DNA of 64,000 nt from Dulcicalothrix desertica PCC 7102 (GTDB lineage: Bacteria; Cyanobacteriota; Cyanobacteriia; Cyanobacteriales; Nostocaceae), in the NCBI RefSeq assembly GCF_003991905.1, contig NZ_RSCL01000011.1, positions 192,984 to 256,983 on the forward strand. The letters run 5' to 3'. The notes beneath the pieces are model-generated. The model saw only the letters and a list, made by a program, of their open reading frames with translations, did no database searches and had not been told where the DNA came from. The position numbers and the translations under genes are program-made. The first letter of the stretch is position 1. Each line of letters begins with the position of its first letter. Positions 21,444 to 45,243 of the stretch are shown in pieces.

Positions 21444-21463
21444 CCTCACAATTTCCTCAAATT
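21444..21463 (+). promoter_or_regulatory. 11-bp direct-repeat element, site A
   Basis: CCTCACAATTTCCTCAAATT, two TCA-centred half-sites one helical turn apart, 61 bases before the gene at 21524. A reversed partial copy (21502-21515) lies between it and the ATG. Confidence 0.7.
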
Positions 21464-21523
21464 AATCACTTATAACCGAGATATAGCGTAACGCCAAGCG
21501 GGAGAAATTGTGAGGTAGCAACT

Positions 21524-22159
21524 ATGAAACGGCGCCGTATAAGCCATTGGAATAGCTTAATTTTGTGGGAACGTTGGGTGCTAGCAACATCGATTGCTTC
21601 TTTAATGAATTTAGCGATAGTAACTGTAGTAGGTATTGTAATCAGTCGTGTTGGTTACATTCAGGGTACTTTTACTTTACTTGGCGCCTTAGAGGGAATA
21701 ATTTTAGGGTCTGCCCAATGGCTTGTTCTTCGTCGTTATATTCAACATTCTGCTCAATGGATTGTAGCTACATTAATTGGCTCTTTGTTGGCTTGGTTTA
21801 CTGGGCTAACTATTAGTACTTTGATGGCACTTGCTTATGCTGGCACCTCGAATATAACAGTATTTATCCAAGGATTAGTTTTGGTTGGTGCTGGTTTAGG
21901 AGTAGTGCTAGGATTCTGCCAATGGCTTGTACTAAGGACTCAAATTCGTTTTTCAATTTGGTGGGTAGGTGTAAATGCTCTTGCTTGGGCTTTGGGTTTA
22001 GTAATAGCATTTGTTGGCGCCGGGATGGTAAGGGATAGTTTAAGTGTTCTAACTACTCTTATCACCGCTGCGACTGGAGCAACAATGGGCGCCGTGATTG
22101 GTGGAATAACAGGTATTGCTTTAGTTTGGTTGTTAAAACTACAAAAAGCACAGATTTAA
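21524..22159 (+). CDS. polytopic membrane protein with repeated QWLVLR motif
   Basis: This 211-residue protein has six or so membrane helices. It is an internal duplication: GSAQWLVLRRYI (about residues 65-76) is repeated as GFCQWLVLRTQI (about 128-139), each at the end of a helix. Proteins of this pattern are common in cyanobacteria, but I know of no assigned function. It has a copy of the 11-bp direct-repeat element upstream, which places it in the putative regulon. Confidence 0.75.
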   Translation: MKRRRISHWNSLILWERWVLATSIASLMNLAIVTVVGIVISRVGYIQGTFTLLGALEGIILGSAQWLVLRRYIQHSAQWIVATLIGSLLAWFTGLTISTLMALAYAGTSNITVFIQGLVLVGAGLGVVLGFCQWLVLRTQIRFSIWWVGVNALAWALGLVIAFVGAGMVRDSLSVLTTLITAATGATMGAVIGGITGIALVWLLKLQKAQI

Positions 22160-22175
22160 CTAAAAATTTTAAATT

Positions 22176-22195
22176 CCTCACAAATTCCTCAAATT
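22176..22195 (+). promoter_or_regulatory. 11-bp direct-repeat element, site B
   Basis: CCTCACAAATTCCTCAAATT, a near-perfect copy of the consensus, 90 bases before the start at 22285. Confidence 0.72.
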
Positions 22196-22284
22196 ATTTT
22201 TTTAATCTCAAAAAATCTCTAGAAAACCGCAGCAGGCGTTTGACTAGTAGGTAAATTATAAAACTAACACTGAGGGCTATATCA

Positions 22285-23520
22285 ATGGCATCTATTAATT
22301 TATTAGCCGTTTTTAACCCATCGAATTATTGGCGAAGCGGTTTTATTACCCTTCCTTGGCAACCCATTTATCAACAATTTCAAATTCCACCAGAAGAACT
22401 AGTATTAAGTGACTTACGTGACCTTTCACACGCACCAATAAAAGCCCAAGTTGACCACGTTGACCCAGAGAGCTTGGAGCGTGATACTTTAATTTTCTCT
22501 CTATCAAAGCCGATTCCGCCAGGTTCAGAAGATGATATGTTTGTTTCGGGCTTTATTAAACTAGACCGAGGAAAGCCAATGCCTCAAAATTCGGGTGAGC
22601 CATTTGTGGAAGTGGTTTATGGAGCAGACGGACGCGAACGTGGAGTTAGACTGTCAAACAGTCGTCTGATTGTCTGGTTTAATTTAATACCTGCGCCTGA
22701 AGATAATGAGCGGAATTGGTTTTCTGGTTCAGCAACGAGTATTCAGCTAGACCACCAAGAAATTTTAGACCCTTTCCCTGCGGCAAGGGGTGAATGGTTA
22801 GGTCAAGACCCAGAGAAACGGTGTATGCAGGTGGCTGCACTTCAATTACCAGGTGTTTCTGATCCAAAATTACCTTACTATCAAGTTCATTTGTACAACC
22901 ATTCGTATAGTTTAGTATCGCAATCGAGCGGTTGTGTACGAGCTAGTATTACTATTGCTTCGGAGCCTTTCAATTATATGGGTGCAGACCCAGTTACAGG
23001 CCATAATCGGCATTTAATATGTAAACTATACCGAGTAATTAGTTTATACGCAGGCGCCGACTATCTAATTGAAGAGTTATTTGTCAAAGGAAAACCAAAG
23101 GCAGAAGAAGATCGGATTATAGATAGTCCAGAAGTTGTTTATCTCAACTTTGGGTTGCACTATTTTGCTCACATGAATATGGGACATACACAAGATATAC
23201 AGCAAGTATTTCCTGTACCTGATTGGTTTGCATTAGGTTCTACTGAACCGCCTTACCCTGCTTATGGTTTAACTACTAATTTACATATCGAGTCTTTGGT
23301 ACACCCTTATGAGGGAAACCCTAGCAATTTCTCATGCCAGTTGTTACCTGGTAAGTTTGCCAAATGCCTGCATTTGTTTATGCGAAATCAACCAAACGAA
23401 TTTGATACACGAGTCGGACATTTTTGGTACGAAATGATTTATAGTCCACTTCGGGCTGAAATTTATCAGGATACTGAGCTTAAATACCAAATTCAAAATC
23501 AAGTTTTTGCTACTGTGTAA
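22285..23520 (+). CDS. hypothetical cytosolic protein, unrecognised
   Basis: This is a well-formed 411-residue gene with no family I can name. The protein has no signal peptide or membrane helix. It is rich in aromatic residues, proline and beta-prone stretches, and has a histidine- and methionine-rich segment (LHYFAHMNMGHTQD, about residue 288) that could bind a metal. The codon use matches its neighbours. It stands alone between two copies of the direct-repeat element and has the best-conserved upstream copy on this strand, so it is a good candidate for a regulated, undescribed function. Confidence 0.7.
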   Translation: MASINLLAVFNPSNYWRSGFITLPWQPIYQQFQIPPEELVLSDLRDLSHAPIKAQVDHVDPESLERDTLIFSLSKPIPPGSEDDMFVSGFIKLDRGKPMPQNSGEPFVEVVYGADGRERGVRLSNSRLIVWFNLIPAPEDNERNWFSGSATSIQLDHQEILDPFPAARGEWLGQDPEKRCMQVAALQLPGVSDPKLPYYQVHLYNHSYSLVSQSSGCVRASITIASEPFNYMGADPVTGHNRHLICKLYRVISLYAGADYLIEELFVKGKPKAEEDRIIDSPEVVYLNFGLHYFAHMNMGHTQDIQQVFPVPDWFALGSTEPPYPAYGLTTNLHIESLVHPYEGNPSNFSCQLLPGKFAKCLHLFMRNQPNEFDTRVGHFWYEMIYSPLRAEIYQDTELKYQIQNQVFATV

Positions 23521-23597
23521 TTAGTATTTTGAGAATAGGGTTTTGGGAGAAGGTAGGAAGTAATAATTTTATTTAATCTTCCAACCTTTTTTCATTT

Positions 23598-23687
23598 TTA
23601 ACTTACTGGCATTGTTATCCATTGGCAAAAACTACCCCATAATTTGCCAAAATCCAACTCTGGACGAGGTTGAATAACAGTACTCAT
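23598..23687 (-). CDS. 29-residue small protein
   Basis: The short frame (MSTVIQPRPELDFGKLWGS then FCQWITMPVS) is preceded by a perfect ribosome site, AGGAGG, 7 bases before the ATG, and by a direct-repeat element about 20 bases further upstream. The strong translation signals argue that it is real. It has two Trp, one Cys and no membrane helix. No family recognised. Confidence 0.5.
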   Translation of the reverse strand: MSTVIQPRPELDFGKLWGSFCQWITMPVS

Positions 23688-23708
23688 TGCTTATACCTCC
23701 TATCGAAT

Positions 23709-23727
23709 AATCAAGAAAGTTGTGAGG
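23709..23727 (-). promoter_or_regulatory. 11-bp direct-repeat element, site C (degenerate)
   Basis: On the minus strand CCTCACAACTTTCTTGATT: the first half-site is perfect and the second is weak. It points at the 29-residue gene, 22 bases away. Confidence 0.45.
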
Positions 23728-23772
23728 AAATTTTTCAACAACTAGCAGATAGCTTTTCTAGTTGATTAAATT

Positions 23773-23886
23773 TTAAATAACAGGGATAGCAGTAAAAATG
23801 CCCAAAAGTAACAGCAGCACAATAAACAAGCTGATTTTGAGAATAATGTACGTAATAATTTCAGGTATTGAAGTATCAAACATCAT
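23773..23886 (-). CDS. 37-residue single-helix membrane peptide
   Basis: The frame begins MMFDTSIPEIITYIILKISL and continues as one hydrophobic helix to the end (FIVLLLLLGIFTAIPVI). GGAGGTGG lies just before the tandem ATG codons. It resembles small membrane peptides that sit in transporter or respiratory complexes, but no partner is visible. It is the same size class as the peptides at 27654 and 56631. Confidence 0.5.
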   Translation of the reverse strand: MMFDTSIPEIITYIILKISLFIVLLLLLGIFTAIPVI

Positions 23887-23989
23887 ATTCCACCTCCATG
23901 TGTAGCCTTAGAATAGTGATGTGAGGTATCTACTAAGATCGAAACATATTATATTCAGCTTTTGTTTCCTATCTTAAAGCTAAAATCAG

Positions 23990-24009
23990 AATGTGAAAAA
24001 CTTGTGAGC
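23990..24009 (-). promoter_or_regulatory. 11-bp direct-repeat element, site D (degenerate)
   Basis: On the minus strand GCTCACAAGTTTTTCACATT. Half-site spacing is kept; the second half resembles that of sites H and I. It lies 104 bases before the 37-residue gene. Confidence 0.45.
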
Positions 24010-24040
24010 AAGTAAAATAATTGATAAAACTTAACAACTA

Positions 24041-24235
24041 CTATACAACTTTGGACTTCACGATTTCATAAGCAGGAGTTGTAGTTATAAATACCTTTTT
24101 ATCCTCATAGCAAATTTGCTGAATTATATTACGTCCAGACATAGCAACAATCGGCACACTACCACCAACTTCAACCCATTGCCCAATCATGTAAAAATTG
24201 TCTAGACCTGGCAGTATCTTATCTATACCAGATTC
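24041..24235 (-). pseudogene. 3' remnant of a phytoene-desaturase-like FAD enzyme
   Basis: Only the C-terminal 60-odd residues survive, reading PGLDNFYMIGQWVEVGGSVP, then AMSGRNIIQQIC and ITTTPAYE. This is the closing FAD-binding segment of CrtI/CrtH-like desaturases and related NAD(P)/FAD oxidoreductases. An in-frame stop (24236-24238) and the absence of any dinucleotide-binding domain upstream show that the gene is broken. It is not a piece of the intact FAD enzymes at 33.9-36.7 kb. Confidence 0.7.
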
Positions 24236-24362
24236 TTAGGGAACACATCCCCAGAGCAGTAGATTTGGTATGGTGGGCAGTGCCCACTTACTTAATTTAA
24301 AGGTATTATTCTATACTATTGCTAAATTTTGATGGCTATAATTCTACCCATGCTTTAACTTT

Positions 24363-24382
24363 CCTCACAAGTTCCTCAAAAT
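24363..24382 (+). promoter_or_regulatory. 11-bp direct-repeat element, site E
   Basis: CCTCACAAGTTCCTCAAAAT, nearly consensus. It precedes the adhE remnant by about 100 bases and the acyl-CoA synthetase gene by about 415. Confidence 0.72.
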
Positions 24383-24484
24383 ATTTGCCTATAACTCAAA
24401 GTAAGAGCAAATGTGTGCAACGCGCGCTTCTTACTATTTACAAAGCTATGTTAAACCAAAAATCCCACATGAGTATGGTATGGG

Positions 24485-24777
24485 CAAATCGCCGACTTTC
24501 TACATTTAGGTGGCGATACGCCAGATGAAAAGTAGAACGGTTAGTGGAAGTAGTGGAAAATCTCAAGCATCAAGTTGATATTCCCCAAACGATAAAAGAA
24601 GCTTTGGGTCTGGAGGAAAAAGAGTTTTTTAATCTTGTTGAAAAAATGGCAGACCAAGCTTTTGATGACCAATGTACAGGCGCCAATCCCCGCTATCCAT
24701 TGATTAGCGATTTGAAAGAATTGTATGTTCTTGCTTATCGCGGCTGTTATACAGATGCAGCAGCTTTTAATTTTTAA
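24485..24777 (+). pseudogene. adhE: 3' remnant of bifunctional aldehyde/alcohol dehydrogenase
   Basis: The text reads QIADFLHLGGDTPDE, then after a one-base frameshift near 24530 KVERLVEVVENLKHQVDIPQ, and ends DDQCTGANPRYPLISDLKEL with a short tail. This is the iron-type alcohol dehydrogenase C-terminus of AdhE (typical text FDDQCTGANPRYPLISE). The other 750 or so residues are missing. AdhE makes ethanol from acetyl-CoA in fermentation. It lies between a direct-repeat element and the acyl-CoA synthetase gene. Confidence 0.8.
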
Positions 24778-24798
24778 TTTTTTACTTAGTGAGAAGCT

Positions 24799-27564
24799 AT
24801 GAAGTCGATACAAATGGCAAGTGACCGCGCTTATGATATTTTTCGAGAAGAACATCATCCCCTCGATGTTATCTTTGCTCCCAAAACTATCGCTGTTATT
24901 GGTGCAAGCGAAAGAGAAAATAGTGTTGGACGTACTGTCCTTTGGAATCTAATTAGCAACTCCTTTGGCGGTACAGTGTTTCCAGTCAATCCTAAACATC
25001 ACAGTATTCTCGGTATTCAAACTTACCCAAATATTGCCACCGTTCCAGAAGCTGTAGATTTAGCAATTATTGCGACACCATCTGTAACTGTCCCATCTGT
25101 AATTGCTGAGTGTGTTGATGTAGGTGTTAAAGGGGCAATTATTCTTTCGGCAGGTTTTAAGGAAACGGGTATACAAGGCGCCTTTTTAGAACAGCAGGTG
25201 TTAGAACAAGTGCGTCGAAGCAAAATGCGGTTGATTGGACCAAATTGTTTAGGTATAATTAACACCCATACTGGTTTAAATGCTACCTTTGCCAGTAGTA
25301 TGGCGTTACCTGGTAAAGTTGGATTTATTAGCCAAAGTGGCGCCTTGTGTACGGCAATATTGGACTGGAGTTTTCGTGAGAATGTTGGGTTTAGCTCGTT
25401 TATTTCAATTGGCTCTATGCTTGATGTTGGTTGGGGGGATTTAATTTATTACTTAAGTGAAGACCCAAATACAGAAAGTATTTTGATTTACATGGAATCG
25501 ATTGGTGATGCCCGCTCATTTCTTTCTGCCGCGCGGGAAGTTGCCTTGACCAAGCCGATAATTTTAATCAAAGCTGGACGTACAGAAGCTGCAGCAAAAG
25601 CCGCAACCTCCCATACAGGGGCATTAGTGGGAAGTGACGCAGTATTCGATGCTGCATTGCGGCGATGTGGAGTATTGCGCGTTAATAGCATCTCCGACTT
25701 ATTCGACATGGCAGAAGTGTTAGCAAAACAACCTCGTCCCAAGGGTTCAAAATTGACAATTATTACCAATGCTGGAGGTCCAGGAGTTTTGGCAACTGAT
25801 GCACTAATAACAAATGGTGGGGAGTTGGCGGAATTATCAAAGCAAACTTATGATGCGCTTAATCAAATATTGCCTACTCATGGCAACCACAGTAATCCTA
25901 TAGATTTATTAGGGGATGCCGACCCCAATCGCTATATTCAAGCAGTTGAAATTGCAGCCAAAGACCCAAATAGTGACGGGTTGCTAGTAATTCTTACACC
26001 CCAAGCAATGACCAACCCAACCCAAACCGCGCGTCTATTAAAACCTTATGCCAAAATTGGTAAACCTATACTTGCGAGTTGGATGGGTGATGCTGATGTA
26101 CAAGCGGGAGCAGAAATTCTCAATCAAGCTTCGATTCCTACATTTCTATTTCCCGATACAGCAGCACGGGTATTTAACTATATGTGGCGTTATAGCTATA
26201 ACCTGCGTTCTTTGTACGAAACCCCCATACTAATTGGCTGTGAAAATACAGATACATCCGTATGCAGCCGTGTCGTAGCAGAAACGATTATTCAAAAAGC
26301 AAGGCAAGCTGGGAGAACTTTACTTACAGAGGTGGAATCAAAACAAGTTCTTGCTGCTTATGATATTCCCACAGTTGAAACATATATTGCAACAACTCCA
26401 CAGCAAACAGTTGAATTAGCCGAAAAAATAGGTTATCCTGTTGTTATCAAGATATTTTCTGAAAATATTACCCATAAAAAAGATGTGGGTGGAGTACATT
26501 TGAATTTGCAAAATGCAGAAGCTGTAAAAAATGCGTATTACCAAATTCAAGAAATCAATACTCAAAACTTTTTAGGCGTTACCGTCCAACCAATGGTAGA
26601 CCTAAAAAATAGTTACGAACTAATTCTTGGTAGCAGTATAGACTTACAATTTGGGCCAGTATTACTATTTGGTTCTGGTGGACAGTTAGTTGAAATATTT
26701 CAAGATACTGCGTTAGGACTTCCCCCACTCAACACTACCCTGGCACGGCTCTTAATGGAGCAAACCCATATATATAAAGCCCTTAAAGGCGTTCGCGGTA
26801 GAAAACCCATCAACATAGAAGCTTTAGAACAGATTTTAGTCCAGTTTAGTCAACTTGTGGTCGAGCAACCTTGGATTAAAGAAATTGATATTAACCCTCT
26901 TTTAGCAAAATCAGAAATCAATTTAACCAAAAAAGAAACAATTCAAAACTCTTTAGTAGCCCTTGATGCTCGTATTGTCCTCCACGATTTAAATACAAGC
27001 GAAACCCAATTACCAAAACTCGCAATTCGTCCCTACCCCACACAATATGTCTCACCCTGGACAATGAAAAACGGTATGTCCGTGACAATTCGTCCTATTC
27101 GTCCTGAAGATGAGCCGTTAATGATTCAATTTCATAAAACTTTATCCGAAGAAAGTGTTTATTTTCGGTACTTTCATTTGATTAAACTGACTCAGCGTAT
27201 AGCCCACGAACGTCTCACACGGATTTGTTTTATTGATTATGACCGAGAAATGGTACTTGTAGCTGACTATAAAAATCCAAAAACTCAACAACACGAAATT
27301 TTAGCAGTCGGGCGCCTGAGTAAAATACACGGCAGCAATACAGCAGAGTTTGCCATGTTAGTTAGCGACCGCTTTCAATACCAAGGATTAGGAACAGAAT
27401 TACTCAAGCGACTGCTGCAAATTGGACGTGATGAAAATTTAACTGGAATTGGCGCCTCTATTCTGCTTGAGAATAGAGGAATGCAACGGATTTGTGAAAA
27501 ACTTGGCTTTCTAAAATATAACAGTGATGATAATTCTGTCGTCAAAGTCGAAATTAATTTGTAG
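24799..27564 (+). CDS. ADP-forming acyl-CoA synthetase fused to GNAT acetyltransferase
   Basis: This is a 921-residue four-part protein. The CoA-binding domain is at about 25-135 ([14 protein letters not shown]), the succinyl-CoA-synthetase-like ligase domains at 150-460 with the active-site His272 ([10 protein letters not shown]), an ATP-grasp domain at about 485-710 ([21 protein letters not shown]), and a GNAT domain at about 745-915 ([18 protein letters not shown]). The full enzyme interconverts acetyl-CoA + ADP + Pi with acetate + ATP, giving ATP during fermentation. Protein acetyltransferases of the Pat/YfiQ type have the same layout but lack the catalytic His, which is present here, so ligase activity is likely. 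The adhE remnant directly upstream fits a fermentation context. Confidence 0.9.
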
Positions 27565-27846: not shown

Positions 27847-28038
27847 CTAAATATCAACATTTATTTGTTCAATTTGTCTTGCAGCTTTCTCCCATAATTT
27901 TGCCAAAGCCTCATCTTCCCAATTATTTCTGAGATTTTCTGCCTTTTTATGGCATATCCGCTCTAGCAACTCTAAAATGGCACCCAATGTAAACTTATCA
28001 ACTAATGCTTCTAAAGCATCCATTGCTTCTCTTTTCAT
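27847..28038 (-). CDS. small conserved helical protein (63 residues)
   Basis: The protein MKREAMDALEALVDKFTLGA onward is all-helical and charged, with LLERICHKKAEN and a final KAARQIEQINVDI. Similar small proteins occur in cyanobacteria without assigned function. I prefer the ATG at 28038; the frame continues to an earlier start at 28071. A perfect direct-repeat element lies 79 bases upstream. Confidence 0.65.
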   Translation of the reverse strand: MKREAMDALEALVDKFTLGAILELLERICHKKAENLRNNWEDEALAKLWEKAARQIEQINVDI

Positions 28039-28116
28039 AACAGATACCGCGCTTCTTTGGATGTGCTGCAATTACTTAAACTTAATTAAGTAGCCATATT
28101 TATGTTATACAAAAAT

Positions 28117-28136
28117 AATTTGAGGAACTTGTGAGG
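28117..28136 (-). promoter_or_regulatory. 11-bp direct-repeat element, site F (perfect)
   Basis: On the minus strand CCTCACAAGTTCCTCAAATT, identical to the consensus; 79 bases before the 63-residue gene. Confidence 0.75.
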
Positions 28137-33026: not shown

Positions 33027-33653
33027 TCAACCACTACACCAATCATCAAACTGTCTTTCTCTATAAGCTTCTGGAAACTCCTCACAAAATTCTTCAAATG
33101 CTGTTTTATGAAGTTGTTTTGCTTCTTGATGGGCAATTTCAGCTTGAAGCTCATCAACCACATCCCAAGCCGCAGCACATTCCTCTGAGCGTGGAGAAGT
33201 GTTTGCACAAATTTCACGAGATTTTTTTATTGCTTCTTGTAGTTCTTGTTCAAGTACAAGTGTCCGGGGCAGCTCTATGAACTCGCTTTTGCAAATAATA
33301 TCAGAAGCCGAAATTATACCGATTAATTCTCCTTGAATAACAGGTGCTTGCAACAAATGATTATCTGCAAATAAACGGGCTACATATTCTACTCCTAAAT
33401 CAGGATTGACAGTAATACATGGCTTTGTCATAATTTCATATACTCGTACTTTAGAAGGGTTTTTACCATAGGCAATTACCTTACTAATAATATCTGAATT
33501 AGTGATAATTCCATATGCGTCTTGAGGATGACGGCGTTCTACGATTAACGCTCTCCAATCGCGCGCTCTCATCAATTTTACAGCTTCACTCACTGTTGCC
33601 GAACTGCGTATTGTGGCAACATCATTTGTCATGATATCGGCTGCTTTTAACAT
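33027..33653 (-). CDS. tandem CBS-domain protein
   Basis: This is a 208-residue protein made of one CBS pair (about residues 1-125: MLKAADIMTNDVATIRSSAT, VYEIMTKPCITVNPDLGVEY) and a helical, acidic, cysteine-containing tail (CEEFPEAYRERQFDDWCSG). CBS pairs bind AMP, ATP or SAM and sense energy state. GAGGAG lies 7 bases before the ATG at 33653; an upstream start at 33668 would overlap it. It is the first gene behind site G. Confidence 0.88.
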   Translation of the reverse strand: MLKAADIMTNDVATIRSSATVSEAVKLMRARDWRALIVERRHPQDAYGIITNSDIISKVIAYGKNPSKVRVYEIMTKPCITVNPDLGVEYVARLFADNHLLQAPVIQGELIGIISASDIICKSEFIELPRTLVLEQELQEAIKKSREICANTSPRSEECAAAWDVVDELQAEIAHQEAKQLHKTAFEEFCEEFPEAYRERQFDDWCSG

Positions 33654-33725
33654 ATAAATGCTCCTCAATTTATTGGTATTTACCCACGGGTTTTAATTCC
33701 CTTATATTTTTACTTATAGAGGAAT

Positions 33726-33745
33726 AAGTTGAGGATTTTGTGAGG
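33726..33745 (-). promoter_or_regulatory. 11-bp direct-repeat element, site G
   Basis: On the minus strand CCTCACAAAATCCTCAACTT, 73 bases before the CBS gene. Confidence 0.72.
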
Positions 33746-33816: not shown

Positions 33817-33836
33817 ACTCACAACATCCTCACATT
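33817..33836 (+). promoter_or_regulatory. 11-bp direct-repeat element, site H
   Basis: ACTCACAACATCCTCACATT on the plus strand, identical to site I at 38801-38820, in the opposite orientation to site G and 71 bases further from the CBS gene. Confidence 0.62.
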
Positions 33837-36695: not shown

Positions 36696-38738
36696 TCATA
36701 AAATTTGACCCATTAAATTCTCAGCTAATTGCCGATACTCAAAAAATTCCATCGAAAAAGTAGCCATCCCTTGGGAAAGCGAGCGTACCTCAGTAGAATA
36801 TCCAAACATTTCTGCTAAAGGAACTTCTGCATGTATAACCACATCGTTATCTAAAGTGTCCGAACCGAGCAATAATGCACGACGAGCTAGCAATTTACCT
36901 TGAATTCTACCTAAAAATTGGCTCGGTGTCTGCACTTCCAATAGCATCATTGGTTCTAAAAGTATTGGTTTAGCTTTCGCAAATGCTTCTTCAAAACCTT
37001 GTCTTGCTGCGAATCTAAAAGCCATTTCATGAGAATCAATTGAATGGTAAGAACCTCCTGACAAAATCACCTTCACCCCCATAATCGGATAACCTTTCAA
37101 CCATCCTGTTTTCAAAGCATCTTCAAACCCTTGTTCGCAAGCATAAATAAATTGTTGGGGAATTTCATCTCCAATAACTCGGTTTTCAAAAATAAAAGCT
37201 TCCTCACATGGTTCCAATCTACCCACCACATGGGCAAATTGTCCGGCGCCACCTGTTTGCCTTTTGAAAGTAAAATCAAAGTTTGCTGCTTGGGTAATCG
37301 TTTCTCGATATGCAACCGCAGGGGCGCCCACATAAACCTCTGTGTGATATTCCCTTTTCATTCTTTCTAAATATATTTCTAGATGCAGTTCTCCCATCCC
37401 CGACATCAGGGTTTTATGAGATTCGGGGTCTGTGGTAACATGCAAAGTCGGGTCTTCGCTCGTAAAGCGCTGCAAAGCTTTGCTAATTTTTTCGATATCT
37501 TCCTGGCTCTTGGGAGTTATAGCAATTGTCATTACTGGTTCCGGAATAAATATTCCTTCCAGAGACATCTTCGTTCCAAGGGAACACAACGTATCTCCCG
37601 AAGCACAATTTACACCAATTAGACCAACTATTTCTCCAGGTTCGGCAATTTCTAACTCTTGACGTTTATCAACTTCTATTCTCACCAAGCGATTAACACG
37701 AACTTGCTTTTGAGTACGACTATTATATAATTTGTCACCCGGTTTCAAAACTCCCGAATAAAGTCGGGTATAAGTTAACTGCCCAAATTCATCATCAATA
37801 AGTTTAAATGCCATTGCGACAACCGCAGCATCCTGAACGGGATAAACTTGTACTTGTTTATTTGCTGCCAAATCTGTCACCGTAACTCCACCCCGCTCAA
37901 TCGGGGAAGGTAAATATAGTGCGATGGCATCAAGTAAATTTTGCACACCCTTGTTCTTAACAGCAGAACCCATTAACACTGGTGTAAATTCTAGTGTCAA
38001 GGTTCCCTGACGAATTGCATCCCAAATCATTTGTTGGGGAATCTCTTCACCTGCAAGCAATTTTGCCATCATTGCTTCCGAATGGATAGAAATAGTATCC
38101 AAAAGTTTGTCTCGTGCAATTTGTGCTGGTTGTTGCAATTCAAAAGGAATTGGTCGTTTCTGCCAAATCTCTCCGTTATCCCCTTGAAAATAATTGGCAG
38201 TCATCTCAATTAAATCGATAACTCCCACAAACTCATCTTCCAAGCCAATTGGATATTGTAGTACAACCGGATTTAAGCCCAATTTTCCCCGTAATGCATC
38301 CACAACCCGGAAAGGATTGGCGCCAAGGCGATCAAGTTTATTGATAAAAGCGATACGGGGTACTTGGTAGCGCTTCATTTGTCTATCGATGGTAATAGAT
38401 TGTGACTGTACACCTGCAACCCCACACAACACCATAATTGCTCCATCTAAAACCCGTAAAGAGCGCTCGACTTCAATTGTGAAATCCACATGACCAGGTG
38501 TATCAATTAAATTAATCTGCTTATCACCCCAAAAACAGGTAACAGCAGCAGAGGTAATAGTAATACCCTTTTCTCGCTCTAATTCCATATAATCCATCGT
38601 TGCACCACCACTATCCACCTCTTCAATCTTGTGGATTTTTCCGGTATAGTATAAAATCCGTTCTGAAAGGGTAGTTTTACCTGCGTCGATATGAGCAGAA
38701 ATACCGATATTGCGGATGTTGCAGCGAGGAATCATCAT
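36696..38738 (-). CDS. elongation factor G paralogue
   Basis: This is a 680-residue, full-length translational GTPase: G1 AHIDAGKT, G2 region KGITITSAA, G3 DTPGHVDF, G4 NKLD, then domains II-V through the end. It is slightly shorter and more divergent than housekeeping EF-G, as are the extra copies most cyanobacteria carry. Ribosome translocation or recycling under special conditions is likely. It is expressed from its own direct-repeat element (site I) and leads the two FAD enzymes. The main fusA is not in the window. Confidence 0.92.
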   Translation of the reverse strand: MMIPRCNIRNIGISAHIDAGKTTLSERILYYTGKIHKIEEVDSGGATMDYMELEREKGITITSAAVTCFWGDKQINLIDTPGHVDFTIEVERSLRVLDGAIMVLCGVAGVQSQSITIDRQMKRYQVPRIAFINKLDRLGANPFRVVDALRGKLGLNPVVLQYPIGLEDEFVGVIDLIEMTANYFQGDNGEIWQKRPIPFELQQPAQIARDKLLDTISIHSEAMMAKLLAGEEIPQQMIWDAIRQGTLTLEFTPVLMGSAVKNKGVQNLLDAIALYLPSPIERGGVTVTDLAANKQVQVYPVQDAAVVAMAFKLIDDEFGQLTYTRLYSGVLKPGDKLYNSRTQKQVRVNRLVRIEVDKRQELEIAEPGEIVGLIGVNCASGDTLCSLGTKMSLEGIFIPEPVMTIAITPKSQEDIEKISKALQRFTSEDPTLHVTTDPESHKTLMSGMGELHLEIYLERMKREYHTEVYVGAPAVAYRETITQAANFDFTFKRQTGGAGQFAHVVGRLEPCEEAFIFENRVIGDEIPQQFIYACEQGFEDALKTGWLKGYPIMGVKVILSGGSYHSIDSHEMAFRFAARQGFEEAFAKAKPILLEPMMLLEVQTPSQFLGRIQGKLLARRALLLGSDTLDNDVVIHAEVPLAEMFGYSTEVRSLSQGMATFSMEFFEYRQLAENLMGQIL

Positions 38739-38800: not shown

Positions 38801-38820
38801 AATGTGAGGATGTTGTGAGT
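38801..38820 (-). promoter_or_regulatory. 11-bp direct-repeat element, site I
   Basis: On the minus strand ACTCACAACATCCTCACATT, 62 bases before the EF-G start and identical to site H. Confidence 0.7.
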
Positions 38821-38850: not shown

Positions 38851-38870
38851 CCTCACGATTGCCTCAATTT
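38851..38870 (+). promoter_or_regulatory. 11-bp direct-repeat element, site J
   Basis: CCTCACGATTGCCTCAATTT on the plus strand, 30 bases beyond site I and in opposite orientation, repeating the arrangement of sites G and H. Confidence 0.6.
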
Positions 38871-38991: not shown

Positions 38992-39525
38992 TTACACTTG
39001 CAGAGAATTAGCAGCTTTTACTTGTTGCAATTCTTGACTATTGGCTTGAACTGATTGTTGTACTGTTAGAACAGAGCAAGGAGCATGGTGCAAAACATAA
39101 TTACTAACACTACCCAAAAAGAACTCGCTTAATCCAGTTCTGCCGCGACGACCTATAATAATTAAATCAGCATTCCAAGTCTGAGCTATTTCACAAATAA
39201 CTCGGCTTGGGTCACCAAACAAAATTTTAAATTCTGCATCTATACCTAAGTCTATTGCTTGCTGACAAAGTTGCCTTAAAAACTTAATTTTATCTTGTTT
39301 AATGTTTTCTGATTGCTGAATGTATTCCTTCACAACTTCTCCGTATAAAGCTGGAACAGCAGTATTAGGATAAGCATATATCGGGGGATACTGTTCATCA
39401 AAGGGTGATATTACGTTGACCAACATCAAATTTGAAGCAGTCAACTGTGCTAGCAATAAAGCTTTATCCACAACTGGCTGGCAAGTATCATGAGTATCGA
39501 CTGCAACCAAAATTTTATTAAACAT
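38992..39525 (-). CDS. universal stress protein (UspA family), second copy
   Basis: This is a 177-residue Usp with KILVAVDTHD at the start and the ATP-binding motif GRRGRTGLSEFFLGSVSNYV. It is clearly a duplicate of the gene at 31594-32121. It stands alone on the minus strand, 125 bases from site K. The Usp copies of this region are the kind usually induced together with Hsp20 and PEP synthase under energy limitation. Confidence 0.92.
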   Translation of the reverse strand: MFNKILVAVDTHDTCQPVVDKALLLAQLTASNLMLVNVISPFDEQYPPIYAYPNTAVPALYGEVVKEYIQQSENIKQDKIKFLRQLCQQAIDLGIDAEFKILFGDPSRVICEIAQTWNADLIIIGRRGRTGLSEFFLGSVSNYVLHHAPCSVLTVQQSVQANSQELQQVKAANSLQV

Positions 39526-39649: not shown

Positions 39650-39669
39650 AATTTGAGGAAGTTGTGAAG
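39650..39669 (-). promoter_or_regulatory. 11-bp direct-repeat element, site K
   Basis: On the minus strand CTTCACAACTTCCTCAAATT, one base off consensus at each of two positions; 125 bases before the second Usp gene. Confidence 0.7.
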
Positions 39670-39691
39670 AATGCCAATTTGCAAATATTTG

Positions 39692-40257: not shown

Positions 40258-40506
40258 CTAGGGATTTATAAGTCTGTCACCTAACTTAGCCCAAGTTTTG
40301 GCGCCGACTATTCCATCTGCCACCAAGCCAAAAGTAGTTTGGTATCTTTTTACTGCTTGCTCTGTTTTTGAACCAAACTTTCCGTCAACTCCACCTGTGC
40401 GATAGCTTTGAGATTCCAACAGTTCCTGTAGAAGTGTTACAGCCCCACCTTCGCTGCCGATACGTATAACTGGTAATTCAGCTGCGTCTTGTGTTTCAAC
40501 TGGCAT
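40258..40506 (-). CDS. small peptidoglycan-binding-domain protein
   Basis: This 82-residue protein is one PG_binding_1 domain: VTLLQELLESQSYRTGGVDG, KFGSKTEQAVKRYQTTFGLV and ADGIVGAKTWAKL. There is no signal peptide visible, which is unusual for a wall-binding domain and also seen in several small cyanobacterial members. Site L is 51 bases upstream. Confidence 0.85.
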   Translation of the reverse strand: MPVETQDAAELPVIRIGSEGGAVTLLQELLESQSYRTGGVDGKFGSKTEQAVKRYQTTFGLVADGIVGAKTWAKLGDRLINP

Positions 40507-40556: not shown

Positions 40557-40576
40557 ATGTTGAGGAGATTGTGAGG
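40557..40576 (-). promoter_or_regulatory. 11-bp direct-repeat element, site L
   Basis: On the minus strand CCTCACAATCTCCTCAACAT, 51 bases before the peptidoglycan-binding gene. Confidence 0.72.
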
Positions 40577-40630: not shown

Positions 40631-40660
40631 TGTAGAGACGCGACATGTCGCGTCTCTACA
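40631..40660. repeat. 30-bp perfect palindrome, GTAGAGACG family
   Basis: TGTAGAGACGCGACA followed by its exact complement, with no loop. It is the longest member of the family also found inside modBC and at 59210. Confidence 0.85.
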
Positions 40661-40704
40661 AGGTTTTGGGCATTATTATGTACCTCATATACCTGAAATT
40701 TGCT

Positions 40705-40797: not shown

Positions 40798-43062
40798 TTA
40801 ACTTGATTGGAACAACTTCTCGATTTTCTTCAATTCTGATAAAGCTTGTTTATGTTTGGTAATATCACGTGTAATCAAGACTGCTACTATGCTTTTATCA
40901 GGTTGCTGCATAGGTACAGCGTGAGTTTGCAGCCATCGATGGTTTCCTTTACAAGTAATTATCTCAAATTCCAAAGTTCCAGAACCGCCTGCAAATACTT
41001 TTTGATTTAGTTTTTCAAATGCATCGCGATATTCTGGGGTGATTAAAGAGTAAATATTGCGACCAATTACATCATCAGCTTTTTCTGCTTCAATCATCGC
41101 AAATCCTGCTGGATTGATTTCTAGTAAAGTCCCATCGGGAGCAAGTACTTTTACGCATTCTGGTTCCGCATCAAATATAGTACGCCAGTATAAACAAGAA
41201 TTGCGGTCTACAGAAGATTGGCTTTGTGCTACACGTCGCAATAATTTATTACGTTCCAAACGGTTAAGAATGCAAGCGATAAGTTCAGTACCTACAATTG
41301 GCTTGCTCACAAAATCATCGGCGCCTACGGTAAATACTTGATTTATAATATCAGAAACAGTATGAGCCGTTAAAAAAACAATTGGCAAATCACCCCAATA
41401 AGGGTCATTACGAACTACTTGACAAAGCTCAATACCGTTGATATCTGGCATTTCTACATCCAAGATAAGTAAATGTGGCTTCGTTGCTTCTAATACTTCC
41501 CAAAAGTTTTTGGGATTATCCAAAGTATGTACTTTTAATCCCCAAGGTGACAGTAAAACTTGTAAAAGTTCTAGAATTTTGGGGTCATCATCGACGGCTA
41601 AAATATTAGTCTCAAAATTTTCATCTTGCTCTAATACTTGTGCTACAACTTCTAAGACTTTGGTTGGCGTAGTCGGTTTCTGCAAAAAAGTATTTCCACC
41701 CTTACGAGCGGCTTGCAAACGACTAGCAAAATCGGTCTTCTCTGTAAAAATTACAGCAGGTACAGGTGGTTTAAGTTGTTTAAGGTCTGTCAGTAAGCTA
41801 CTAACATCCTCCCAACTTCCGCAAACAGTCGGGTCAAGCAAAACAATACTTGGATGTGTACTATAAAGTTTAGCACGGGCTGTATTAATATCGGTTGCAC
41901 CAATAACTTGTAAACCTTTATTTATTGCTTGATTCCGCAGTTCCGCAACTACTGACTCATTATCAAGAACTAACACTAATGGAAGTTCGTTTTGTACTTT
42001 TTGCCCTAAGTGTAGTGTGAGTGGTGAAAACTGCCCAATTTCTTGTACTAAAGCTTTTACTAATTCATTAATTTTTGCTGTATCGTATGTATCTAAATCA
42101 TTTTCAAACTGTAAGAGTTTCTCAATCTTATGGGCAATTTGAGAACCTTCGTCCAAGCCAATACTTCCTAGAAAGCCAGCAAAAGTATGCGCCACGTTTT
42201 GTGCGGATGAACGTAAATTTGAATTTAAATTGTTAGCCTTCAAAGCCTCAGCAGCTTCTACTAAAATATTGACTTGTTCAACAACATTAGAGCTATATTT
42301 ATGCCATAATAGAGCAATTGTTGAAATATTTTTTTGTTTAAAAGAAGTAGTTTTAACTTGAGAGGTAGATTTTTCAGTTTTTTGGTGTTGTGATATTTTT
42401 AATCGATAACCAATTCCATAAACGGTTTCAACTAAATCGCTAGATGCCCCTGCTGCTTTTAATTTTTGTCGTAACCCTTTAATATGAGTACGAACAGCTT
42501 CTTCGCCTGGAGCTTCTTCATAAGACCATAAATGCTCTAAAATCATTCCGCAACTAAATATCCGCTTACTATTTCGCATTAACAGTTCTAAAAGCGCATA
42601 TTCTTTTGGGGTTAAATTTAAGATTTCATCACCATAAGTAACTTGACAGGTAGTCGGGTCAAGTTTTAATTCTCCAGCTGTTAATACAGGCTGTGAAGAC
42701 ACTTTACCACGACGTAAAAGAGCATGTACCCTTGCTATCAACTCTTCTTGGTCGAAAGGTTTAACAAGATAATCATCTGCACCTGCATTTAAACCGACTG
42801 CTTTCTCGTGACTACTATCGCGTCCTGTTAATAATAAGATTGGGGTTTGTAAACCTAAGTCACGAATTTGACGGCAAAGGCTAATACCATCCAACTTTGG
42901 TATTATAACATCAAGTAGTATTAAATCATATTCGTAAGTTTGAATTAAATCTTTAGCCGCCTCACCATCTGCTGCTGTCTCAACTGCATAGTTTTGATTG
43001 CTAAGGATGAGCTTTAGCACTTCACAAACAAGCAGGTCATCCTCGATAACTAAAATTTTCAT
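40798..43062 (-). CDS. multi-receiver OmpR/PhoB-type hybrid response regulator
   Basis: This 754-residue regulator has, in order: receiver 1 (about 1-120; Asp in LILLDVIIPKLDG, Lys in YLVKPF), an OmpR/PhoB winged helix (about 130-225; LTPKEYALLELLMRN, VRTHIKGLRQKL, VYGIGYRL), an Hpt-like helical domain (about 255-340; AHTFAGFLGSIG), receiver 2 (about 355-475; Asp in IVLLDPTVCG, context degenerate), receiver 3 (about 485-605; LLILDVEMPDING) and one PAS domain (about 625-735). It ends soon after the PAS domain (KKIEKLFQSS), so a following kinase or output domain may have been lost. No partner kinase lies nearby. Proteins with this wing type bind direct repeats with an 11-base period, the geometry of the element scattered around it. 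Confidence 0.9.
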   Translation of the reverse strand: MKILVIEDDLLVCEVLKLILSNQNYAVETAADGEAAKDLIQTYEYDLILLDVIIPKLDGISLCRQIRDLGLQTPILLLTGRDSSHEKAVGLNAGADDYLVKPFDQEELIARVHALLRRGKVSSQPVLTAGELKLDPTTCQVTYGDEILNLTPKEYALLELLMRNSKRIFSCGMILEHLWSYEEAPGEEAVRTHIKGLRQKLKAAGASSDLVETVYGIGYRLKISQHQKTEKSTSQVKTTSFKQKNISTIALLWHKYSSNVVEQVNILVEAAEALKANNLNSNLRSSAQNVAHTFAGFLGSIGLDEGSQIAHKIEKLLQFENDLDTYDTAKINELVKALVQEIGQFSPLTLHLGQKVQNELPLVLVLDNESVVAELRNQAINKGLQVIGATDINTARAKLYSTHPSIVLLDPTVCGSWEDVSSLLTDLKQLKPPVPAVIFTEKTDFASRLQAARKGGNTFLQKPTTPTKVLEVVAQVLEQDENFETNILAVDDDPKILELLQVLLSPWGLKVHTLDNPKNFWEVLEATKPHLLILDVEMPDINGIELCQVVRNDPYWGDLPIVFLTAHTVSDIINQVFTVGADDFVSKPIVGTELIACILNRLERNKLLRRVAQSQSSVDRNSCLYWRTIFDAEPECVKVLAPDGTLLEINPAGFAMIEAEKADDVIGRNIYSLITPEYRDAFEKLNQKVFAGGSGTLEFEIITCKGNHRWLQTHAVPMQQPDKSIVAVLITRDITKHKQALSELKKIEKLFQSS

Positions 43063-43301
43063 TATCTAAATTTTTAGCGATGGTAACTACACTTTTATAG
43101 TTGATGATCGTAAAAATAAACTATATCGTTTATAGATACAGTTAGCCAGCGGGATGCAAGCTTTATTTGTATAACTCTGAGCTTTTAGTTTCAGGGGAAC
43201 GTATTTTGCATAAAATTATTATGTATTTCCATATTGATAATACAAAGTAGCCCGCCACATAGTTGAATTTTCTTCACATATCTTAACTCTTCTTCAACAT
43301 T
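43063..43301. other. upstream region of the regulator gene
   Basis: A+T-rich sequence with no open frame or strong hairpin. It should contain the regulator's promoter. No good copy of the direct-repeat element lies within 200 bases of the start codon. Confidence 0.5.
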
Positions 43302-43320
43302 TCTCACAAGCCCATCAAAT
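43302..43320 (+). promoter_or_regulatory. 11-bp direct-repeat element, site M (weak)
   Basis: TCTCACAAGCCCATCAAAT on the plus strand. The spacing is kept but four positions differ from consensus. It precedes the P-type ATPase remnant by about 200 bases. Confidence 0.4.
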
Positions 43321-43441
43321 TTAAAATTTAACCTGAACCTAAAACTACCCGACAACCACTCCCCAAGGGCTGAGTGATGCTGAAGCTAATCTACTTATTA
43401 AACAATACCTCACCAGAATGCATCATTCTCAATAAGCTTAA

Positions 43442-43509
43442 AGAAACCGGGCTTCTGTACGAAAAATCAACGTTTTCTAGCAAAGTATTTGTCAAGAAGC
43501 CCGGTTTCT
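43442..43509. repeat. inverted repeat with 15-bp arms, AGAAACCGGGC family
   Basis: AGAAACCGGGCTTCT (43442-43456) and its perfect complement (43495-43509). It ends a few bases before the P-type ATPase remnant and is followed by the same GGTGCAAGAT text seen at 8944 and 56878. Confidence 0.82.
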
Positions 43510-43516
43510 GGGCCTG

Positions 43517-43959
43517 GTGCAAGATGTAAGATACGGGTATAATGAACTACCACCAAGTCAAAGACATCCTTTATTATTACGCTTTGTTAACCAATTAACT
43601 CACTTCATGGCGCTTTTATTATGGGTCGCAGGAACGTTGCCTTTTATTTCACAAACCCACCCCAGAACCTGGCTGGGCAATCTGGGCAGTAATTTTGATC
43701 AACGCAATTTTTAGTTTTTGGCTGCCGTTCCGAAAGAATTTCGATATTTCGCTTGGGAATTGCAGTCGAATGGGTATTAATTTTATCAATTATTTACTCT
43801 CCCACCTTGCAACAAATCTTTATGACTGCACCTTTACAACCTTTACAATTGTTAACTTTGCTAATATGTCCGCCATTAGTTTTAATCGCCGATGAGGGGA
43901 GCAAACGGTTTATAAGGCGCCTTATTGCGGTTGCTTTTGAAAATCCTATTTTCCATTAA
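43517..43959 (+). pseudogene. internally deleted, frameshifted P-type cation ATPase
   Basis: The N-terminal segment reads RYGYNELPPSQRHPLLLRFV and LTHFMALLLWVAG. It continues in another frame as GWAIWAVILINAIFSFW and then jumps to the last membrane helices (VEWVLILSIIYSPTLQQIF, then LLTLLICPPLVLIADEGSK). The phosphorylation and nucleotide-binding domains (about 700 residues) are missing. The intact gene would be a Ca2+/Mg2+- or cation-transporting ATPase of the PMA/CtpF kind. Confidence 0.78.
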
Positions 43960-43963
43960 AATC

Positions 43964-44011
43964 AGGACTTACGCAAAAATCCTAGAAACCAGGTTTTTGT
44001 GCGTAAGTCCT
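43964..44011. repeat. inverted repeat with 12-bp arms
   Basis: AGGACTTACGCA (43964-43975) and TGCGTAAGTCCT (44000-44011), a common cyanobacterial intergenic hairpin type; it lies between the ATPase remnant and the hsp20 promoter. Confidence 0.75.
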
Positions 44012-44035
44012 AAAAATATTTAACTTCATCGCAAT

Positions 44036-44055
44036 CCTCACAACTTCCTCAAATT
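44036..44055 (+). promoter_or_regulatory. 11-bp direct-repeat element, site N
   Basis: CCTCACAACTTCCTCAAATT followed by TTTAT; 77 bases before the hsp20 start. Confidence 0.75.
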
Positions 44056-44131
44056 TTTATCTTAACTTGATAGTAGAGCCAATATCAGGCTCTACTATGA
44101 AAAAGTAAAAGCGTATTTGAGGAATATAAAT

Positions 44132-44710
44132 ATGTCTTTAATACACTGGGAACCATTGAAAGAGTTGAATGCTTTACGTCAAAACGTAAATCGCTTGTTT
44201 GATGAAATTATGCATCCAGAACAAATGCATAAAGTCTTCCCTACACTTGATGGTCTAAATTGGAACCCGGCTATTGAGCTTAAAGAATTAGATCAAGAGA
44301 TTATCCTTAAAGTACAAGTACCGGGAATAGATGCTAAAGATTTAGACATTCAAGTCAGTGAAAATGCAGTTGCAGTTGCAGGTGAATATCAAGAGGAAAA
44401 AACGAGCGATAGTAAAGGATTTTATCGCTCTGAATTTAGTTACGGAAAATTTCAACGCATTATCCCATTACCAGCAAATGTCAAACACGAGGAAGTAAAA
44501 GCAGAAGTAAAAGATGGTGTGGTGACTTTAACTTTACCAAAAGCTCAAACATCTCAACGTAATGTTGTCAAAGTTGATTTGACATTCCAAGAAAAAGCAC
44601 GGGAGGCAATGACTGAAGAACGTTTGCATGAAAAACATGTTCAAGATACAATGCGAGGACGTGCCAGCGAAGAATTAGACAAAAGCACAGTTGATTACGT
44701 TGCCCAATAA
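44132..44710 (+). CDS. Hsp20/alpha-crystallin small heat-shock protein
   Basis: This is a 192-residue holdase chaperone. The N-terminal part LIHWEPLKELNALRQNVNRL is typical of bacterial class A sHsps. The alpha-crystallin domain covers about residues 43-145 (NPAIELKELDQEI to DGVVTLTLPKA). The C-terminal tail is about 35 residues longer than usual and strongly charged (EKAREAMTEERLHEKHVQDT). GAGGA precedes the ATG at 44132; an upstream TTG is less likely. It is monocistronic and controlled by site N. Confidence 0.93.
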   Translation: MSLIHWEPLKELNALRQNVNRLFDEIMHPEQMHKVFPTLDGLNWNPAIELKELDQEIILKVQVPGIDAKDLDIQVSENAVAVAGEYQEEKTSDSKGFYRSEFSYGKFQRIIPLPANVKHEEVKAEVKDGVVTLTLPKAQTSQRNVVKVDLTFQEKAREAMTEERLHEKHVQDTMRGRASEELDKSTVDYVAQ

Positions 44711-44768
44711 GCAAGAACTGCAACGGTAGAACCAAGGCTTCACGAAGAACACAACCGCGTAAAATGGT

Positions 44769-44788
44769 AGGGTGGCTTAAGCCACCCT
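44769..44788. terminator. perfect 20-bp palindrome after hsp20
   Basis: AGGGTGGCTTAAGCCACCCT lies 59 bases after the hsp20 stop. It can form a strong hairpin but has no T-run, so it may be a dispersed repeat used as a terminator. Confidence 0.5.
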
Positions 44789-44792
44789 GCCT

Positions 44793-44972
44793 TTAGACCG
44801 TAGAAAATCTCGAATCGAACTGTTCAACTAAACAACGAACCTGCTCATCAGTCACTTGAGAGAAATCTTCGTATCTAAATCCAACATTATAAAAAGGTTC
44901 TGGAGTTAACAAGCATACAACAGAAGAAACCAGAGTTTGCAACTGCTGATAAACTTTAATTGGCGCCTTCAC
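44793..44972 (-). CDS. doubtful 59-residue frame
   Basis: A GTG-started frame (VKAPIKVYQQLQTLVSSVVC onward, ending CLVEQFDSRFSTV) with protein-like composition but no recognised family. Its start lies inside direct-repeat site O, so it may be a fragment of a lost gene. Confidence 0.25.
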   Translation of the reverse strand: MKAPIKVYQQLQTLVSSVVCLLTPEPFYNVGFRYEDFSQVTDEQVRCLVEQFDSRFSTV

Positions 44973-44986
44973 AAGTTCCTCAAATT
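44967..44986 (+). promoter_or_regulatory. 11-bp direct-repeat element, site O
   Basis: CTTCACAAGTTCCTCAAATT followed by TTTAA, 13 bases before the pfk remnant. Confidence 0.7.
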
Positions 44987-44999
44987 TTTAACATTTTAG

Positions 45000-45194
45000 T
45001 TGCAACTGAAGAATGGTAAAGCTGCTGTAGATTTAATTGCACAAGGCGATACAGGTAAGATGGTTGGATGGCACAATGGAAAAGTTGAAGCCATACCTCT
45101 TTCTAATGTTCTTGCTCAAAGTCCCTTGCTTGTAAGCGCGAATAGTTATTTAGTCGAAACAGCACGCGCGTTAGGTATTTATGTAGGAAAATAA
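45000..45194 (+). pseudogene. pfkA: 3' remnant of 6-phosphofructokinase
   Basis: The 64 codons (MQLKNGKAAVDLIAQGDTGK, MVGWHNGKVEAIPLSNV, LVETARALGIYVGK) match the C-terminus of bacterial PfkA, where the segment G-AAVDL-A-G and the closing LV-TAR-LGI-LG are conserved. The ATP and fructose-phosphate sites are absent, so it is not functional. A copy of the regulatory element remains 13 bases in front of it. Confidence 0.72.
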
Positions 45195-45223
45195 CCAGCA
45201 AAAGTTATCACAGTTATCAACTT

Positions 45224-45243
45224 CCTCACAAGTTCCTCAACTT
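45224..45243 (+). promoter_or_regulatory. 11-bp direct-repeat element, site P
   Basis: CCTCACAAGTTCCTCAACTT, 105 bases before ppsA. Confidence 0.74.

Follow-up and report, generated by a model that had tools for sequence, protein, structure and literature searches.

Class II promoters of the PhoB/OmpR kind carry a ‘Pho box’, an 11-base direct repeat that overlaps the -35 region and lies about 10 bases before the -10 box. In cyanobacteria, the Pho box of SphR is formed by CTTAACCT-type repeats, and the HLR1 box of RpaB by TTACA-type repeats. A further point of reference is the mycobacterial DosR dormancy regulon, in which a NarL-type regulator and a palindromic box serve Usp, Hsp20, CBS and nitroreductase-type genes, while hybrid two-component systems unite a sensor and a DNA-binding regulator in one chain. 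Described here is a direct-repeat element that recurs in a 64,000-nucleotide stretch of Dulcicalothrix desertica PCC 7102 (contig NZ_RSCL01000011.1, forward strand, positions 192,984 to 256,983; the whole stretch is termed ‘the window’, and is part of what is here called contig C11 of an 11.4-Mb genome), together with a clade of response regulators that probably acts upon it.

The system resembles PhoB/OmpR class II promoters in its 11-base direct repeat over the -35 region and in a regulator with receiver and Trans_reg_C domains, whereas the sequence of the repeat and its targets are different, and the regulator adds Hpt, receiver and PAS domains and, in six relatives, a kinase. With the DosR regulon it has Usp, Hsp20 and CBS targets in common, a likeness in working only: the regulator here is of the Trans_reg_C (OmpR) rather than the NarL type, and the box is a direct repeat rather than a palindrome. 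As in hybrid two-component systems, the same six relatives carry kinase and DNA-binding domain on one polypeptide; here, however, the winged helix is found near the N-terminus behind a receiver, and is accompanied by an Hpt domain that would permit an internal phosphorelay. To our knowledge, none of CyAbrB1/2, SigE, LexA and RpaA has the domain make-up of the candidate regulator. These are the regulators of hox named in the accessible parts of two sources (CyAbrB1/2, SigE, LexA (Synechocystis) and RpaA (PCC 7942); PMC13421787, a 2026 review, and PMC11368403), where the target operons hox and nifJ are common to both systems, the SigE -10 box is given as TANNNT, and the 11-base CCTCA repeat was not found. 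The open-access literature, as far as accessible, yielded no description of the element or of the regulator, exact motif strings leading to unrelated papers only (a subscription paper could exist), and the accessible part of a report on the hyp operon of PCC 7120 does not mention the element (PMC2408588).

The element can be written as CCTCACAAnTT-CCTCAAATT, with a conserved part of 20 bases, and the 23 aligned sites from the organism’s own genome give the consensus CCTCACAAnTTCCTCAAATT. This consensus fits neither the CTTAACCT-type repeats of the SphR Pho box nor the TTACA-type repeats of HLR1; phosphate-acquisition targets were absent from the 25 commonest families both of the 81 and of the 80 genes behind sites that are enumerated below. 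A first-pass annotation of the window had proposed a regulon-like set of 16 elements, 13 of them clear and three weak. All 13 clear copies were confirmed in place, each consisting of two direct half-sites one helical turn apart, with TCA cores separated, as had been claimed, by 11 bases (13/13). A simple pattern allowing up to three mismatches matched the window 31 times, against an expectation of 14.5 +/- 3.8 and a maximum of 21 in 100 shuffles. Scoring relied upon a 38-column matrix (element plus -10 box) built from all 23 own-genome sites, and upon a held-out matrix built from only the 10 such sites that lie outside the window. The former gave at least 33 bits to 12 of the 13 clear sites, where 100 order-2 shuffles of the window gave no score above 15.1; the latter gave the 13 sites 16.2-42.3 bits, with 12 of them above the maximum of 100 shuffles (19.0) and the doubtful copy at 38851 below it. 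The three weak copies (23708, 23990 and 43302) scored 12.8-14.5 bits with the held-out matrix, each indistinguishable from chance by score, and the set is better counted as 13 good sites than as 16. A further match inside the regulator gene, at 41808 (16.7 bits), is likewise under the shuffle maximum. Outside 21.4-45.2 kb, where no clear copy had been seen, a single match attained 10 bits with the held-out matrix (7212, 10.1 bits). Most sites had been placed 50-125 bases before a start codon; nine of the 13 are found at 46-125 bases, the others being 44967 (13 bases), 24363 (416 bases), and 33817 and 38851, neither of which has a close co-oriented open reading frame (ORF).

Beyond the window, a second dense cluster of sites occupies 13.9-30.5 kb of contig C18 of the same genome, among genes that include a nitroreductase-like protein, OsmC, Usp, a peptidoglycan-binding protein, a flavin amine-oxidase-like protein and an HlyD/FtsX/ABC set; it also holds a paralogue of the candidate regulator, 73% identical to that of the window in its receiver-winged-helix part. 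Single strong sites are located on contigs C14 and C1, and weaker ones elsewhere. Of 388 genomes from the order, 130 contain the exact 16-mer YTCACAANTTCCTCAA, and 10 contain its reversed control, with one match each; a sequence-only model of the 23 sites found matches at E <= 0.1, a loose cut, in 86 of 120 genomes of the order, 24 of them with at least five. Among 292 genomes drawn from the phylum, the 16-mer is present in 29. Five of these come from other orders: two members of family f38 carry 5 and 3 copies, and each of the remaining three carries one. A chance repeat is ruled out by the shuffles, the held-out matrix and the reversed 16-mer; the element and its regulon are real and conserved, and extend further than the first-pass annotation saw. 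Its reading of the copies as a regulon with an OmpR/PhoB-type repeat is supported by the fixed -10 box, the intergenic position of the sites, their conservation before orthologous genes and a co-occurring OmpR-type regulator that is often encoded next to them, and checks for random spread, in-gene location and lack of conservation before orthologues did not refute it.

Because the receiver-winged-helix part of the window’s regulator has 32 matches within its own genome, the association of this particular regulator with the motif needed testing. Of 24 motif-bearing genomes, 16 contain a close member (E <= 1.5e-93, identity 64% or more), versus none of 12 motif-poor controls, the best control match (2e-89, 61%) leaving a gap to the members that is narrow at the edge. 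In a tree of 61 receiver-winged-helix rows, 26 were grouped in one clade (support 95/81), all of them from motif-bearing genomes and three of them divergent members from family f20 that are located beside sites. Within family f1, to which the window belongs, a clade member is present in all 19 genomes with at least four exact copies of the 16-mer (E <= 2.9e-102), and 18 of the 19 genomes with no copy have nothing better than 4e-75, so that 1/19 has a member; this exception, G220, possesses a site with one change beside its regulator. Genus g73 contains both states, each on the expected side, and G094, an f1 genome with one to three copies, belonged to the 24-versus-12 comparison. The association extends to position: a site of at least 22 bits lies within 1.5 kb of 19/41 clade loci and of 0/62 loci of more distant homologues, among which are L151 (in the clade by tree) and L415/L416 (with a close helix), none of these having a site.

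All 18 aligned members share the recognition helix AVRT(H/Q)IKGLR without variation, and it is kept in L180/L181, which are overall only 52-54% identical; other homologues carry, for example, TVRSHIKGLR or TVKAHIRGLR. The Hpt His is equally invariant (18/18), as are, in receivers 1 and 3, the phospho-acceptor Asp and the Lys; the middle receiver varies. In six relatives that were scanned the regulator is 1080-1770 amino acids (aa) long and contains PAS (in three also GAF), HisKA and HATPase domains, with four or five receivers in five of the six; the remaining 12 aligned members have frames of 684-793 aa, and the window regulator has no kinase part. Carrying both receiver and Trans_reg_C domains and being associated with the motif, it is a candidate for the cognate regulator, and the likely activator acting on the element.

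We thus regard it as probable that the element is the binding site of this clade of OmpR/PhoB-type response regulators, which would activate a fermentation/excess-reductant and dormancy programme. Co-occurrence and adjacency cannot prove binding, however, and the association tests were aimed at the clade regulator; a different transcription factor that uses the element and travels with the same gene islands, one of which is borne on a conjugative plasmid, would leave the clade regulator a mere passenger. This alternative, to which the 11 motif-bearing genomes discussed next also lend weight, is unlikely in our estimation: co-occurrence is seen as well in five f18 genomes with no site found in 20 kb around the regulator, it holds inside genus g73, and an 11-base direct repeat at such spacing suits an OmpR-type protein.

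Several observations weigh against the clade regulators as those which act on the element. Eleven motif-bearing genomes have no identified clade member: G045, G065, G068 and G103, together with G120, G135, G149, G233, G268, G304 and G316 (best E 8e-91 to 5e-80), these last seven judged by E value, outside the tree. Seven of the 11 belong to f20, whose three known clade members are 52-56% identical and hence too divergent for the cut-off, so that members would be missed there; G304 and G316 have homologues with the close helix AVRTHIKELR. The regulators of G065 and G004 fall outside the clade and are found beside variant sites (CCTCAAAATT... and CCTCATAACTT...), and Nostoc C052 and Leptolyngbya NIES-3755 have the clade helix but TCATAA sites. 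Of the clade loci, 22/41 have no site inside 1.5 kb. The Fisher p of 1e-9 for co-occurrence in f1 is overstated because the genomes are related, and that test used genomes with at least four copies or none, 27 with one to three copies being left out. As for the signal, which would be low oxygen or over-reduction, the accessible part of the study of PCC 7120 considered below reports a response to CO2, so that oxygen lack is a presumed signal (PMC7699953), and in Chlorogloeopsis fritschii, according to the part of the report accessible, hardly any change was seen under an anoxic gas phase in the light (PMC10830646).

The arrangement of the sites relative to the -10 box bears directly on how the element works. 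Of the 23 own sites, 22 have T at position 27 of the element frame and 21 have A at position 28. As choosing sites with the help of the -10 box would be circular, loci were also picked by the bare 16-mer alone: TA follows at +27 in 33/39, against 12 at the offset next in frequency. Of the 39 loci, 36 are intergenic, all three in-gene ones being without TA; one locus comes from the window’s own genome and several are near-identical homologous sites, so that not all are independent. In relatives, TA stands at +27 of 122/126 sites, many of them chosen with TA. The 40 fetched regions contain 63 intergenic sites and three in ORFs, though their DNA is 77% coding, and these 66 sites compare with a single one in resampled sequence three times as large. 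Conservation is limited to the element and the -10 box, the surrounding columns varying; a 17-base spacer would put a -35 hexamer inside the first half-site, which is unlike TTGACA. Judged from these alignments, the element reads as a promoter element, a box at a fixed distance upstream of -10 that would replace the -35, in a layout which by analogy would be that of promoters needing an activator over the -35.

The fixed -10 spacing (33/39) would also be expected if the element were an extended -35 recognized by a special sigma factor, and not an activator site at all; we find this very unlikely, in that the -10 is an ordinary TAnnnT, the conserved 20 bases with their 11-base repeat are much longer than a -35 hexamer, and an OmpR-type regulator is found together with the element. 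A dispersed mobile or structural (MITE-like) repeat with no regulatory role, to which the clustering of copies in islands, one on a plasmid, might point, is rejected as barely credible, since the flanks outside element and -10 are not conserved and the sites precede the starts of unrelated genes with a fixed -10.

According to the activator mechanism that we favour, a multistep phosphorelay would end on the N-terminal receiver and drive DNA binding, a pair of regulator subunits, arranged head to tail, would occupy the two 11-base repeats along the same face of the DNA, and the bound regulator would sit beside RNA polymerase at the TAnnnT box, 27 bases from the start of the element, so that the gene is turned on rather than repressed. 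The regulator would belong to the receiver-winged-helix-Hpt-receiver clade that includes window gene 40798-43062 and the C18 paralogue; its kinase-fused relatives would combine sensing, phosphorelay and DNA binding in one chain, and the window copy, having no kinase, would therefore need one in trans. The predicted regulon comprises PEP synthase, PFOR, AdhE, acyl-CoA ligase, the hydrogenase (Hox/Hyp), PTOX, Usp, Hsp20 and CBS proteins.

The gene content behind the sites was counted for strong sites (those under 24 bits were excluded from the gene list), in the regions from the strongest matches listed and the regulator matches. The 81 first genes behind sites include nine with PPDK_N (PEP synthase), nine Usp, five Hsp20, three PFOR and two CBS, and 80 further genes (first and following, from other sites) include eight Usp, six PPDK_N and two each of AOX/PTOX, photosystem reaction-centre protein and HoxF-like protein. 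In 80 control genes from the same regions (of 130 sampled from 565, regulator genes excluded), Usp occurs twice and PPDK_N is outside the 25 commonest; this control set contains island genes (hydrogenase, phosphoketolase, phosphofructokinase) possibly in operons with sites. Individual arrangements include HoxE followed by a HoxF-type protein behind a site; HypA as the second and a HypB-type protein as the third gene; a PFL-activase-type radical-SAM protein (our own label) followed by AdhE; a dihydroorotate-dehydrogenase-like protein and PFOR; a Rieske protein; and the ADP-forming acyl-CoA ligase, behind a site in the window and as second gene in G094. BLAST groups with the element span nine genomes for Usp (a group to which usp 38992-39525 belongs), nine for PEP synthase (one of them a short piece) and five for Hsp20 (that of 44117-44710). 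The first-pass annotation had described the targets as being of one physiological kind; they do share a theme, better put as fermentation/excess reductant plus stress proteins. The 64-aa ORF behind 44967 is more aptly seen as the tail of a phosphofructokinase. By blastp, this ORF (45000-45194) is 38-63% identical to the C-terminus of ORFs of 364-416 aa from the islands of relatives, which are read as phosphofructokinase because that enzyme is annotated for one control gene, and we take it to be a gene remnant that still keeps its element. In two genomes, a small Cys-rich (zinc-ribbon-like) protein is located behind the element (L035:4459-4653 and L184:12115-12375).

Conservation before orthologues was followed for ppsA, using the upstream DNA of 38 ppsA genes from 15 of the 19 regulator-positive and 15 of the 19 regulator-negative f1 genomes, with a 60-aa ppsA fragment of G298 left out. 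A site is present in 13/15 positive genomes, pointing at ppsA in 12/15, and in 0/15 negative ones at 22 bits. In eight genomes with two fetched copies of ppsA, the element precedes one copy only; G306 and G384 have no site before the fetched ppsA, and the best site of G387 points away from it. Locus L452 of the regulator-negative G235 shows a degenerate element, CCTCGCAACATCCTCAAACT (21.8 bits), in the usual place before ppsA, perhaps a site that decayed after loss of the regulator. Separately, some ppsA frames are about 390 aa longer than usual (L188:4971-8588 of G058; 1212-1228 aa in G387, G385, G365, G128, G154, G261 and G289); in the PEP synthase of G058 the extra stretch lies near residues 438-830, at the mobile-domain active site, and is possibly an intein.

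When CO2 was decreased from 3% to 0.04% in Nostoc sp. PCC 7120, expression fell by a factor of 107 for ppsA, 74 (average) for hox, 65 for ptox and 42 for nifJ, and the accessible part of the study names no common regulator for this response (PMC7699953). The element could explain this joint 42- to 107-fold change, the link being made via relatives of PCC 7120. For Acaryochloris marina, the one link in the accessible part of a paper on oxygen levels is a slight microoxic rise of the plasmid ATPase set (PMC5295598). With confidence only a little better than even, we propose a dedicated, horizontally moving anoxia/over-reduction regulon under a one-chain phosphorelay activator, which would unite hydrogenase, PFOR, AdhE, PTOX, a second PEP synthase, a special psbA and dormancy proteins, and would supply the positive control of fermentation and hydrogen metabolism that has been missing for heterocyst formers and many other cyanobacteria. 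The control of such genes in heterocystous cyanobacteria is little described in the literature found; a regulon readable from sequence, with a candidate regulator and a promoter code for bidirectional hydrogenase, PFOR, ethanol/acetate fermentation, PTOX and the second PEP synthase, offers a switch for hydrogen and ethanol work.

Several named cases are plasmid-borne. On the conjugative plasmid pSTA7437.01 of Stanieria cyanosphaera PCC 7437, regulator STA7437_RS23000 is found in an island with Hsp20, two Usp, Dps, OsmC, a Rieske protein, psbA, ppsA, and lactate and alcohol dehydrogenases, several of whose genes are preceded by sites, mostly with TCATAA instead of TCACAA. In Acaryochloris sp. 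‘Moss Beach’, a regulator with the same helix is encoded on plasmid pMB02, where its neighbours are ppsA, a second ATPase set, hoxE/U, hydrogenase, hyp and Usp genes; this plasmid has one strong site, before Hsp20, and others under 20 bits. Related regulators are also found on plasmids from Nostoc sp. C052, Chroococcidiopsis and two Leptolyngbya, near genes for Usp-type or DUF1269 proteins, phosphoketolase or glucan phosphorylase, and oxidoreductases, with one or two sites each, mostly weaker.

Related regulators at L202 (G065), L102/L125 (G004), L383-L384, L386, L388 and L389 adjoin motif variants, which are distinguished by the base that follows the first TCA (TCACAA, TCATAA or TCAAAA). A tight link between recognition helix and this base was not borne out: G065 and G004 share the helix core AVSTQIKGLR, yet their sites carry A and T after TCA, and C052 and NIES-3755 likewise speak against it. 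The variants beside sister regulators constitute a natural case for the study of specificity change. At L192:11238-12947 (G090), about 2 kb from a site, lies a protein whose first 132 residues resemble the regulator; the same BLAST comparison gave no match to the winged helix.

Table 1. Copies of the element and the candidate regulator gene in the window (positions from the first base of the window).
Feature	Position	Strand	Context	Score and remarks
Element	21444..21463	+	Before ORF 21524-22159 (211 aa, no Pfam match)	41.2 bits; TA at +27
Element	22176..22195	+	Before ORF 22285-23520 (411 aa, no Pfam match)	46.2 bits
Weak copy	23708..23727	-		12.8 bits held-out; not above chance
Weak copy	23990..24009	-		14.5 bits held-out (shuffle maximum 19.0); not above chance
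Element	24363..24382	+	416 bases before ADP-forming acyl-CoA ligase-GNAT gene 24799-27564	47.3 bits
Element	28117..28136	-	Before small ORF 27847-28071	45.7 bits
Element	33726..33745	-	Before operon-like run headed by CBS-CP12 33027-33668	38.2 bits
Element	33817..33836	+	Divergent to 33726; no nearby co-oriented gene	33.6 bits; 19.8 held-out
Element	38801..38820	-	Before EF-G (36696-38738) and two flavin amine-oxidase-like genes (35122, 33887)	38.1 bits
Doubtful element	38851..38870	+	Divergent; no -10, GC replaces TA	16.2 bits held-out (< 19.0)
Element	39650..39669	-	Before Usp 38992-39525	44.9 bits
Element	40557..40576	-	Before peptidoglycan-binding protein 40258-40506	33.8 bits
Candidate activator gene (754 aa)	40798..43062	-	Receiver - Trans_reg_C winged helix - Hpt - receiver - receiver - PAS	
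Weak element	43302..43321	+	Divergent from regulator gene	14.3 bits held-out; 15.2 with 28-column matrix
Element	44036..44055	+	Before Hsp20 44117-44710	42.6 bits
Element	44967..44986	+	Before putative phosphofructokinase C-terminal remnant 45000-45194	33.3 bits; TT replaces TA
Element	45224..45243	+	Before PEP synthase 45348-47777	40.8 bits; conserved before ppsA in relatives

The homologue in G094 of ORF 22285-23520 is likewise found behind an element, and the acyl-CoA ligase gene matches the acetate-CoA ligase alpha model TIGR02717 slightly under its cut-off. The operon-like run behind 33726 continues from CBS-CP12 through Germane (32165), Usp (31594), an M28 peptidase (29055) and ICMT/PEMT (28383). 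Several relatives have a strong site at the place of 43302, which may be its degenerate counterpart. The window further encodes, at 9682-11100, a GAF-HisKA-HATPase kinase, a possible kinase in trans, and, adjoining the island at 48883-52077, a LanM-like lanthipeptide synthetase (DUF4135 and LANC_like).

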